IMG/VR virus record: IMGVR_UViG_3300021081_000014
Coordinates: 1-30,135 of that record
Reading direction: 5' to 3' (one strand)
Length of the DNA stretch: 30,135 nt
DNA from: a virus
In this document: positions 17,043 to 20,940 of the stretch, one piece after another
Numbering within the stretch: the first letter of the stretch is position 1
Layout: each line of letters starts with the position of its first letter
Program-made: the position numbers and the translations under genes
Notes under the pieces: model-generated
The model's input: only the letters and a program-made list of their open reading frames with translations
Database searches by the model: none
Told to the model about the DNA's origin: nothing

Positions 17043-18494
17043 TTATAGATTTAGTTTTTTAAGTTCTTCTGGTGTTGTAGTAAAAGTTTGAGACGAACCA
17101 TTCCAAGCCATGTGGCCATATCTGCCACCGTCCCAAAAGTGATTGAATGCATCAATCGGTTGATTTATAGCAATTCCGTTTATTTCTTTCATTCTGTAAT
17201 TTTCTTTTTCTTTTTTTGCTTGAATGTAGAACTGATTCTTTACGATGTGGATCTTCTTTTTCTTCATTGAATTAAGCCAATACATAACGCCTTTTGTTTT
17301 ACTGACTTTAGAAACCTTCCAACCTCGTTTTCTAAGACCTTTCACCATTTCAATTGTTCCTTTATTCTCGCTTACATGCTTATCAGAAGAATCGGCTGTT
17401 ATTGGAAGTTCTTTTTCAATTCCGATAGCTTCCATATAATCAGATATTTCTCCAGGAGTCTCAATTGGTTCGTAGCACAATAATTCAAGCCAGATGTTGT
17501 AATCATCTTCAGCGTGTTTTACTAATGTGGTTGGATCAACTGTAAATCCAAAATCCATTCCGTAACTATAACCCATATCTGGAAACTCATCAATCCATTC
17601 AACGTGATTAAATATCACGCCTTTCATTGCGCCTCTTAATCCTAATCCATATACTTTCCAGTTGAACTCATTGGCAGTTCCGGCTTCAATGTTTTTTATG
17701 TTTGGAGGCGGTTGGTTCTTTTCTGTGACTATCTCACCATTGTAATATATCTCACCATCCATTACAACATAAGAATCTGATTCCCAAGGTTCGTATCCTT
17801 TAATCTTATTTAGCTCTCCAGGAGAAATAAATTGAAGATTGTTTTGATATGTTGTTCTTAAGAATCCAACATCTGGACGTGAAAGCACATTATCAAAAAA
17901 CCAATGCTCAGTTACACTTGGATTATAATCGGCCCACCAAAATATACGGCAACGCATTTCAGACTGATCAAAAACATGTTGCTTCAAGAACATTATTTCA
18001 TTGTAAAAAGCATAATCACAACCTCCACCATGTTTACCGTCTCCAAGGAAATAGATTGTACTTTTCCCTATTTTGAAGCTTTTAATCTCTTTAGCATTAT
18101 GAAAAGGGTTTGGTAAATCAAAATCATCCAATCGCCTTTTGAAATCATCATACAATGTTGTTTTAAATTCATTGTATGTTTCACGGTATATATTTATTGT
18201 ACATCCAGTTTCTTGATGTTTTTCTAAGCAAAGCCAAATAATTATATCAATTCCGGACCATGTTTTTCCAGATCTTGACGAACCTTCTAAAGCACAACCT
18301 CTAAATCCTGATATTAATTCTCCTTTTGCATTATAATTTTGTTGGAGTATAGCAGAATGAAGAAAATCATAGTTTAGGTTTTTATCTTTTGTATTATTAA
18401 GGCCTGATTTCAGAATGTCAAGATCACGTAAGCGATAAAGCTCCTCAAGCTCAATTATTTCAGCATCACTTAATTTGCTCCAATCGATACTCAT
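17043..18494 (-). CDS. terL: Terminase large subunit
   Basis: 483 residues. The packaging ATPase has a Walker A motif GSSRSGKT (71 to 78) and a Walker B-like segment with catalytic Glu in YAFYNE (161 to 166); Asn replaces the usual Asp before Glu, as in some PBSX/SPP1-type terminases. The nuclease domain shows the expected acidic residues: YGMDFG (Asp 314), TADSSDKH (Asp 367) and a late Asp in IDAFNHFWDGGRYG (about 448). It cuts concatemeric DNA and pumps it into the prohead. The start overlaps the stop of the small subunit by four bases, indicating coupling. All motifs needed for activity are visible. Confidence 0.93.
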   Translation of the reverse strand: MSIDWSKLSDAEIIELEELYRLRDLDILKSGLNNTKDKNLNYDFLHSAILQQNYNAKGELISGFRGCALEGSSRSGKTWSGIDIIIWLCLEKHQETGCTINIYRETYNEFKTTLYDDFKRRLDDFDLPNPFHNAKEIKSFKIGKSTIYFLGDGKHGGGCDYAFYNEIMFLKQHVFDQSEMRCRIFWWADYNPSVTEHWFFDNVLSRPDVGFLRTTYQNNLQFISPGELNKIKGYEPWESDSYVVMDGEIYYNGEIVTEKNQPPPNIKNIEAGTANEFNWKVYGLGLRGAMKGVIFNHVEWIDEFPDMGYSYGMDFGFTVDPTTLVKHAEDDYNIWLELLCYEPIETPGEISDYMEAIGIEKELPITADSSDKHVSENKGTIEMVKGLRKRGWKVSKVSKTKGVMYWLNSMKKKKIHIVKNQFYIQAKKEKENYRMKEINGIAINQPIDAFNHFWDGGRYGHMAWNGSSQTFTTTPEELKKLNL

Positions 18495-19111
18495 TTTCCA
18501 ATTCCTTTCGCTTCCAACTTTCTAATTCTTTCATCACGATCTTCGCTGGAAAGCAATACTTTATTTTTCTGATCATTATCTTTTTCGTAGAATCCAATAT
18601 GCTTATTGATTTTTTCAATGGTCCATTCTTTACCATGAAGTTTTAATTCAATTTCACCGTAACGGTTTTGCTTGATGGATTCAACACACATCAACTGATC
18701 TTCTGTTAGTTTATCAAAGGTTTTGAAGCGTAATTCAGTTCTTCTTTCGATGGTAGTTGAAACAACCATGTTTTTGCCTTTTCCAGTGGTGGTGGTTACT
18801 GGAACATCAAACTCTACATATTCCACATACTCATCAATTCTAGAATTTCGAAGAATGTTTAAATGTCGAAGCATTTCTGTAGATGTAATCTCGAACTTCT
18901 TTTCAGCAATTTTAGCAACCTTTGATTGAAGTTCTTTTATCCTTGCCCCAACATTGCCCTTTTCGCTAAGCAAGCAAGCCTTACTATTGACAGTAGAATC
19001 TTTCATTTTTGAAGTATTGTAAGCCTCACGATAAGCAGCAGACTTATCTCCCAAACGTATATACGCCTGACAAAATGCTTCTTGTTTTATGGTGAGGTTA
19101 TTTGACTTCAT
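18491..19111 (-). CDS. terS: Terminase small subunit
   Basis: 206 residues, overlapping the large subunit start. The N-terminus carries the Terminase_2-type DNA-binding motif: LTIKQEAFCQAYIRLGDKSA, then AYREAY and a second helix before SEKGNVGARIKELQ. The middle (about 70 to 150) is the oligomerisation region, and the charged C-terminus (KDNDQKNKVLLSSEDRDERI) probably contacts the large subunit. It recognises the packaging site on viral DNA. The length is typical of the family. Confidence 0.88.
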   Translation of the reverse strand: MKSNNLTIKQEAFCQAYIRLGDKSAAYREAYNTSKMKDSTVNSKACLLSEKGNVGARIKELQSKVAKIAEKKFEITSTEMLRHLNILRNSRIDEYVEYVEFDVPVTTTTGKGKNMVVSTTIERRTELRFKTFDKLTEDQLMCVESIKQNRYGEIELKLHGKEWTIEKINKHIGFYEKDNDQKNKVLLSSEDRDERIRKLEAKGIGK

Positions 19112-20049: not shown

Positions 20050-20219
20050 TATGCCTCGATGAATGATTCAACAAAAACATCTTGCTCTTTTAAAATGATC
20101 TTACGGAAATCGTTTTCTTGAGTTTCTGCAAAATCAATTATTGCATATCCAATAAGAGTAGGATCTACAGTTTCTTTTCCGTTTACGAATATTCGGCCAT
20201 TTACAATTTCGATTGCCAT
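20049..20219 (-). CDS. Hypothetical 56-residue protein
   Basis: ATG at 20219, stop TAA at 20049..20051, overlapping the next start. It starts MAIEIVNGRIFVNGKETVDP, a beta hairpin-like opening, and ends with an acidic helix. It is the first protein gene after the structured RNA region, 20 bases beyond the end of the closing stem of that RNA. Confidence 0.5.
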   Translation of the reverse strand: MAIEIVNGRIFVNGKETVDPTLIGYAIIDFAETQENDFRKIILKEQDVFVESFIEA

Positions 20220-20238
20220 AATTTTTTTGATTTAATTT

Positions 20239-20458
20239 GAAATAAAAGCAGTTCACATCTGATTTTTTATAGAGTACTTTCAAGGAAAATTCAAACTCTA
20301 CTTCTACCCAACGCTATACGGCTCAGATTGTCTACGTTCTATTGGATAATTACTCGAAAAATCCCCATTAATTCACGTATCATGTAATGATTTCACGAGC
20401 CTTATTAAACCCGAATGGTTCCATGTCCAGACTTATCTGGGTAAACTGCTTTTATTTT
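20239..20458 (-). ncRNA. 3' multibranched domain of the structured RNA
   Basis: A 14-base stem (20240..20253 with 20444..20457) encloses about 190 bases. Inside, on the minus strand: CCAGA/TCTGG around TAAG, ATGG/CCAT, an enclosing ACCC/GGGT, GGCTC/GAGCC, ATCAT/ATGAT, GGAT/ATCC, and TAGAGT/ACTCTA. The 3' arm ends AACTGCTTTTATTT, so the closing stem runs into a U-rich end and may also define the transcript 3' end. Confidence 0.6.
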
Positions 20459-20469
20459 CAAAATTATTG

Positions 20470-20608
20470 TTAGAATAACAGGATTCGAACCTGTATGAGA
20501 GTAGTCCTTTTTAGTTCAACTTGTTTAGCCTCTCTTATGTGAACTCATTTACGGGCAATTACGGAGCGTTGTCCAACCGTCAGCGTTTACCAATTTCGCC
20601 ATATTCCA
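20470..20608 (-). tRNA. tRNA-like element 2, no anticodon arm (139 nt)
   Basis: On the minus strand: a 7-pair acceptor stem TGGAATA/TATTCTA, a D arm GCG-AAATTGGTAAA-CGC as in class II (Leu-type) tRNAs, and a canonical T arm ACAGG-TTCGAAT-CCTGT. The 80-odd bases between D and T arms hold no normal anticodon stem-loop. Instead AGTTCA/TGAACT and GAGAG/CTCTC pair in crossing order, a possible pseudoknot. CCA is not encoded. It is either a degenerate tRNA or a tRNA-like domain of a larger RNA. Confidence 0.45.
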
Positions 20609-20612
20609 ATTT

Positions 20613-20678
20613 GTGACCTCCCGTGTTATGTAACACAATCGCCTTTACGCAGCTTCGGTTTTTCTTGCTCGAGGTCAC
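20613..20678 (-). ncRNA. Long hairpin within the structured RNA region
   Basis: GTGACCTC (minus-strand 5' arm) pairs with GAGGTCAC over 8 bases, closing a 66-base element. Inside its 3' half GTGTTA/TAACAC forms a 6-base hairpin with a 2-base loop (more likely 5 pairs with 4). It starts 4 bases upstream of tRNA-like element 2. Confidence 0.5.
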
Positions 20679-20693
20679 TTATTTCACTTTTCA

Positions 20694-20764
20694 CCACCTA
20701 TCCTACTTGCAATTAGGAAACAAATATTACTTATTACGTAATTCATAATATTTGCTTTCGGTGG
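20694..20764 (-). ncRNA. Three-way junction within the structured RNA region
   Basis: On the minus strand an outer CCACC/GGTGG stem encloses two adjacent hairpins: CAAATATTA/TAATATTTG (20746..20754 with 20721..20729) and TCCTA/TAGGA (20714..20718 with 20701..20705). Linkers are one to a few bases, a compact three-way junction. No protein reading frame explains these matches. Confidence 0.55.
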
Positions 20765-20784
20765 CTACTTTCCTTTGTTTGTTG

Positions 20785-20904
20785 TGGAGAAGAACGGACT
20801 CGAACCGCTGACCCTTATTACTGATTCCTAAGTCTTACGACTCATACGGACTGTACACATCCTAACAGTTTTTCTTTGGCTCTAACCAACTGAGCTACTT
20901 CCCC
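20785..20904 (-). tRNA. tRNA-like element 1, no anticodon arm (120 nt)
   Basis: On the minus strand: acceptor GGGGAAG/CTTCTCC (one G-U), TA, D arm GCTC-AGTTGGTTA-GAGC identical to ordinary bacterial tRNAs, and T arm AGCGG-TTCGAGT-CCGTT. The 68 bases between lack an anticodon stem-loop; instead there are ACTGT/ACAGT and GAGTC-GTAA-GACTT, the latter capped by a GNRA tetraloop. CCA is not encoded (A then CAAC). It is too short for a group I intron, so a tRNA-like domain is favoured. Confidence 0.5.
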
Positions 20905-20907
20905 GTT

Positions 20908-20940
20908 TTAAAAAAATCCATCCAATTAAGAATGGATTTT
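20908..20940 (-). terminator. Intrinsic terminator after the secreted-protein gene
   Basis: AAAATCCAT (20913..20921) pairs with ATGGATTTT (20932..20940). On the minus strand it ends in a run of seven T's. It lies 20 bases after the stop of the secreted-protein gene and only a few bases before tRNA-like element 1, so transcription of the RNA needs read-through, antitermination or processing. Confidence 0.75.

Follow-up and report, generated by a model that had tools for sequence, protein, structure and literature searches.

The window, a stretch of 30,135 nucleotides from a virus (IMG/VR record IMGVR_UViG_3300021081_000014), encodes on the minus strand between positions 20904 and 20237 an array of two tRNA-like elements (TLS1 and TLS2), two small structured domains (B and C) and a 220-nt 3' domain, called D. 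The RNA and the terminase operon share one orientation. The features of the locus are, from 5' to 3' on that strand:

20910-20940, minus strand: terminator-like hairpin and T run, 5 nt before TLS1 (sequence; relatives)
20785-20904, minus strand: TLS1, tRNA-like, acceptor GGGGAAG/CUUCUCC (G3:U70, A73), D and T arms complete, anticodon arm absent (RF00005; structural parse; relatives)
20810-20878, minus strand: 69-nt insert replacing the TLS1 anticodon arm (structural parse)
20693-20765, minus strand: domain B, a three-way junction with closing stem GCCACC/GGUGGU and second hairpin UCCUA/UAGGA (compensatory changes in L122, L123, L294 and L288)
20613-20678, minus strand: domain C, a hairpin with closing stem GUGACCUC/GAGGUCAC (sequence; comparison with L122)
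20470-20608, minus strand: TLS2, tRNA-like, tRNA-Leu-type D arm, anticodon region replaced (RF00005; acceptors of L122 and L294)
20237-20456, minus strand: domain D, the conserved 3' domain, with P1 closing stem, hairpin, pseudoknot, P6 and apical hairpin (model R1; covariation)
20052-20219, minus strand: small gene of 56 aa, starting 18 nt after D (tblastn against the D loci)
18491-19111, minus strand: terminase small subunit (phrog_51, 2.9e-21; Pfam Terminase_2)
17043-18494, minus strand: terminase large subunit (phrog_2, 2.4e-21)

A first-pass annotation had read the minus strand from 20908 to 20235 as a large structured RNA, possibly of a new class, that holds no credible protein gene. The absence of a credible gene was borne out, and the RNA assignment is upheld by strong covariation, described below, and by the lack of any Rfam 15 family other than tRNA that matches the window RNA. 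The minimum free energy of the whole region has a z-score of -2.6 relative to 20 shuffles. With cmscan, the full RF00005 model of Rfam is matched twice on the minus strand, with 39.9 bits at 20904-20785 and with 37.1 bits at 20608-20470, and each match has a long insertion in its anticodon region, in agreement with the proposal of two tRNA-like elements devoid of anticodon arms; ARAGORN in default mode calls no tRNA in the window RNA. Most of the secondary structure proposed at that stage was also found. The 14-pair closing stem corresponds to P1 of D, which has 15 pairs (20456-20442 with about 20256-20242) and covaries in 27 distinct sequences; the three-way junction is domain B (20765-20693); the 8-pair hairpin is present and closes 20678-20613; and the upstream terminator is the hairpin and T run at 20940-20910. 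By contrast, the GTAA cap assigned to one hairpin was not confirmed (it is UUAA in the nearest relative, L134), and the two crossing helices proposed within the second element stay putative.

Related loci, designated by L numbers, were first reached via the terminase large subunit, and were collected by pattern scans of viral contigs, through the neighbouring small protein, with TLS1 strings and by a genome scan. A short motif, CGTATAGCGTT, then a hairpin, then TATAAAAAA is conserved upstream of the terminase in several of them. About 30 loci have a homologous domain D, nearly all beside terminase genes of flavobacterial phages. The collecting pattern used for some of these loci fixes only the GCGTT and TATAAAAAA columns and leaves the covarying helices free. 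L009, L011, L012 and L008 were collected by terminase. TLS1 and D are linked from both sides: L264, L294, L332 and L337, picked by a TLS1 string alone, contain D according to the model. An apparently complete copy lies in a prophage of the Flavobacterium sp. UMI-01 genome, where D is flanked by the small gene and a terminase small subunit, while a large protein of another family takes the position of the terminase large subunit; two further D loci were found in Flavobacterium genomes. The genome-wide pattern scan gave mostly chance matches, from which L215 alone was kept, by covariance model. A BLASTN search of the region against isolated phages gave no match, and the nearest isolate, Cellulophaga phage Nekkels_1, is without D. 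That phage carries an unannotated 165-nt tRNA-like element whose anticodon region is replaced (L019:4412-4576).

Domain D is a conserved RNA structure. RNAalifold, given 16 sequences, recovered four elements without guidance, namely a hairpin, a long-range helix, the inner helix and the closing stem, with 13 pairs changed on both sides; to these were added a pseudoknot helix and two more hairpins, one small and one apical. The resulting model comprises 55 pairs, and 93.4% of its 850 cells are paired, as compared with at most 43% when the structure is slid by 1-3 columns. Changes on both sides of a pair account for 77 cells versus 23.4 in shuffles, and every cell of the pseudoknot helix pairs (100%), two-sided changes included. 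The window copy scores 213 bits against covariance model R1, and the covariance model of D found loci beyond its training set. In 12 loci outside the D model, double changes affect 38 of 47 pairs (135 cells versus 43 in shuffles) with a covariation score of 0.656, and the alignment of these loci, being fitted to the D model, is biased towards it; the slid controls nevertheless score far lower (at most 0.152). Covariation in homologues had been named beforehand as a test of the structured RNA, and for D it is strong. The invariant helix 47-52/59-64 given by RNAalifold took the place of a CUCG/CGAG helix considered for D at one point. Rfam 15 has no match to domain D.

The 5' tRNA-like element was delineated in the relatives by a structure-only parser, applied upstream of D, that looks for acceptor, D and T stems and places sequence demands on the T and D loops only. 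The TLS1 acceptor, GGGGAAG/CUUCUCC, shows small variations in L012 and L134. G3:U70 is present in 13 of 13 D-linked TLS1 (parsed loci, none of them picked by TLS1 string), and the bacterial alanine identity set, A73, G2-C71, G3.U70 and G4-C69 (PMC9976931), is complete in nearly all of them. The D stem (GCUC, ACGA, AUGU) and the T stem (AGCGG, AAAGG, GCUGG, AUUGG) vary with compensation. Identity is 85% in the TLS1 body and 41% in the insert, versus 39% for shuffled inserts; insert sequences are unrelated between most relatives, and the stretch that replaces the anticodon arm measures from 16 to 74 nt. It amounts to 16-20 nt in L011, where it forms a five-pair stem with a four-base loop, and in L123, where it is a UUCG hairpin; in L138, a locus without D, 14 nt in total separate the D and T stems. 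Several TLS1 also have inserts in the D loop. An attP origin of TLS1 was considered and rejected: the 5' string of TLS1 occurs in only 2 of 150 Flavobacterium genomes, in the UMI-01 prophage and in L519, a locus with an element of the same kind, so TLS1 was not copied from a host tRNA gene. A body of the TLS1 type at L140:2328 has G3:U70 together with a regular UUU anticodon loop; if alanylated, it would misread Lys codons.

TLS2 has an insert of about 80 nt in place of its anticodon arm, and its acceptor is fully different yet still paired in L122 and L294. The slot before D, which TLS2 occupies in the window, holds ordinary tRNAs elsewhere: tRNA-Phe (L099, L115), tRNA-Tyr (L112), tRNA-Asn (L051), tRNA-Lys (L215) or tRNA-Leu (L128). 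Leu-type anticodon-less elements whose acceptors differ fully but pair stand there in the window, L114, L132 and L294, and another lies slightly further upstream of D in L122. In about 17 loci, D begins some 2-26 nt after a tRNA or tRNA-like element. That ordinary tRNAs and non-decoding elements share this slot is as expected if shape, not decoding, matters. The TLS modules retain the acceptor and the D and T arms, yet they are unable to decode; these observations speak for conservation of the tRNA shape without decoding.

Modules are swapped between phages. Domain B recurs in L099, L135, L122, L123, L294 and L288, where each of its two stems shows compensatory changes; these pairs were checked by hand, as a pooled alignment of B proved misaligned and was discarded. 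A different hairpin domain stands in its place in L105, L115, L116, L128 and L215. Domain C recurs in L099 and, placed after TLS2, in L122, where GACCUC/GAGGUC becomes GACCAC/GUGGUC; its presence at different positions indicates that the modules are shuffled. The terminator-like hairpin with its T run lies 5-20 nt 5' of TLS1 in about 15 of 22 loci, and read-through or an overlapping promoter must be supposed. Just before this hairpin, at 20954-20941 of the window, many loci share the string CAATTCAATATATC, a possible promoter or regulatory element.

On the other side of the array, the small gene lies downstream of D on the same strand in 26 of the 29 D loci (tblastn). Its product begins with the motif IEIxNGRxFVxGxETxDPxLIGYAxLDFAE; the window copy has no match in Pfam or PHROG, and in some loci the protein continues into a FUR-like domain (E 0.002-0.05, below the Pfam cut-off). 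The motif is joined to differing C-terminal parts, some of them FUR-like (window 20219-20052; L116:1418-1753; L264:4057-4464).

Anticodon-less tRNA-like genes similar to these are widespread in viral contigs. A search of such contigs with a fixed D arm and a free acceptor gave 93 elements with paired acceptors whose anticodon regions were either too short or too long, although some few in the second group are ordinary tRNAs with a long variable arm; none of 296 Bacteroidota genomes matched a long-gap pattern. The 93 elements cover all acceptor types. A rule confining anticodon loss to identities that ignore the anticodon was consequently abandoned, all 3:70 pair types having been found, and the alanine signature was kept as an observation on TLS1 only. 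Some elements have paired acceptor and T stems, about 8-11 nt between the D and T arms and no anticodon arm (L494:6685, L510:973, L508:3692, L492:1566, L315:1390). Others have, where the anticodon arm would be, a recurrent insert that is conserved among them, AGGAACCTCTTCACGGTGAAGGACCAAATGCC..., while their acceptors differ but pair (L390:2473, L413:8642, L400, L408, L411, L415, L424); those of L413 and L390 directly follow a normal tRNA. In T4-like phages, a 121-nt tRNA-like gene whose anticodon region is replaced (L268:8906-9026, Aeromonas phage Aeh1 96385-96505) is annotated as tRNA-Val, as tRNA-Leu or not at all, depending on the record.

The explanation I prefer, tentatively and with confidence slightly short of even, is that flavobacterial tailed phages make from this locus a modular noncoding RNA of the late phase, in which tRNA modules are handled by tRNA enzymes and D is the effector. 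The array would run from a 5' non-decoding Ala-type module through exchangeable small domains to a second slot, filled by a real tRNA or a non-decoding Leu-type element, and then D. The host tRNA machinery, with RNase P and RNase Z as a minimum, would recognise the acceptor and elbow parts and cleave the transcript, leaving D to begin immediately behind a tRNA 3' end; TLS1 might possibly also receive CCA and be alanylated. D would then act late in infection in a GOLLD-like manner, perhaps with the neighbouring small protein. Alanylation of TLS1 is plausible because its acceptor carries the complete bacterial alanine identity set (PMC9976931). Several points count against this explanation. No tRNA-like element lies directly upstream of D in L008, L009, L025, L067, L068 and L073, so such an element is not obligatory for D; with the terminator-like hairpin immediately in front of TLS1, an ordinary promoter has no space; and the near-invariant TLS1 acceptor exceeds the need of a mere processing signal.

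Alternatively, TLS1 could mimic a charged tRNA-Ala without decoding: the host AlaRS, for which the anticodon is dispensable, would alanylate it, and it would serve as a decoy or carrier, its partner being AlaRS itself, EF-Tu or a host defence enzyme directed at tRNA acceptor ends. I regard this as rather unlikely, although it has more than the alanine set in its favour: the acceptor stays constant while the D and T stems change with compensation, and the T half of TLS1 matches phage tRNA-Ala genes. The other anticodon-less elements of D loci are Leu-type, and leucine is another tRNA identity that does not require the anticodon. Toxic alarmone synthetases that inspect acceptor stems do exist (PMC11559606). 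However, L012 has G4-U69, L105 has U73, the first element of L115 cannot be parsed as Ala-type, and shared descent of TLS1 could account for part of the constancy; the anticodon-less elements of viral contigs show every 3:70 pair, so alanine charging cannot be the general reason for anticodon loss. A different role for D, as a cis-acting leader controlling the small gene and terminase operon with the tRNA-like elements as upstream cargo, would fit the spacing of 11-25 nt between D and the small gene in most loci, but this spacing is 64-586 nt in L116, L215, L008, L025, L073 and L114, L288 has TLS1 and the small gene without D by the model, and D has no obvious expression platform; I consider such a role improbable.

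The constant place of D beside terminase genes, even where the large subunit belongs to another family (L215), could also suggest a packaging RNA acting with the terminase like the pRNA of phi29. This is quite improbable, given that the small and large terminase subunits of these phages are of the ordinary kind and that Rfam gives no pRNA match; the position of D may reflect the late operon only. Least credible is that the tRNA-like elements are ordinary phage tRNAs with introns, or decaying pseudogenes. ARAGORN with introns allowed does call TLS1 a tRNA-His with a 25-nt intron and a mismatch in the anticodon stem, and the first-pass annotation had named ordinary tRNAs with introns as what would refute it. 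This refutation fails: only 14-20 nt lie between the D and T stems in some family members, and L011, L123, L136 and L138 have too few bases there for an anticodon arm. Introns cannot explain the missing arm because the inserts are unrelated between most loci and as short as 16 nt, and no Rfam intron, self-splicing introns included, is matched in the window. Also against this reading, the acceptor, D and T stems are maintained, any variation in them being compensated, whereas the inserts are random.

The modular noncoding RNA adds to flavobacterial phages, beside their packaging genes, a covariation-supported family that is absent from Rfam 15 and in which tRNA bodies are kept by selection after decoding has been lost. 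Some phage tRNA calls of undetermined type may accordingly not be decayed tRNAs. It is possible, if somewhat doubtful, that chargeable non-decoding tRNA modules form a previously unrecognised class of building blocks from which phages make large noncoding RNAs, the window RNA being one lineage and the elements of other viral contigs being others, and that host tRNA processing or charging is hijacked to mature, stabilise or arm the RNA. The apparently complete UMI-01 copy would make it testable what GOLLD-like phage RNAs that contain tRNAs do.

A literature search for anticodon-less phage tRNAs found none in the collection searched. As in a decoding tRNA, acceptor, D and T arms are present in the TLS modules, but the five-pair anticodon stem with its seven-base loop is not. 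The acceptor and T arm of TLS1 are nearly identical to those of tRNA-Ala genes of cyanophages and enterococcal phages, from which TLS1 differs in having 16-74 nt instead of the anticodon arm and sometimes an enlarged D loop. tmRNA has an Ala-type acceptor with G3:U70 and no anticodon, as does TLS1; TLS1 departs from tmRNA in its complete D arm, which has GG; furthermore, no tag reading frame was identified, and Rfam gives no credible tmRNA match, only a chance match of 13 bits (cut-off 47) to permuted tmRNA in L294. ROOL is likewise a large phage RNA often found near tRNAs, but in the window RNA the tRNA modules belong to the array itself. Membership of GOLLD or ROOL, raised by the first-pass annotation, was not supported: GOLLD has no match at gathering threshold in the window or its relatives, and up to E = 5 neither family matches the window or the full RNAs of two relatives. 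GOLLD has a universally conserved 3' region and a less conserved 5' region, sometimes with tRNAs in the linker (PMC12286853), and a mycobacterial copy has a pseudo-tRNA inside (PMC6582537). The window RNA differs in that its tRNA-like parts are several, non-decoding and conserved, in its flavobacterial hosts, and in matching GOLLD in neither sequence nor structure in Rfam. It shares the phage context, the large size, the conserved 3' domain and the variable 5' part with tRNA inside. GOLLD thus remains the best analogue in layout, with membership not supported, and the window RNA perhaps works like it.
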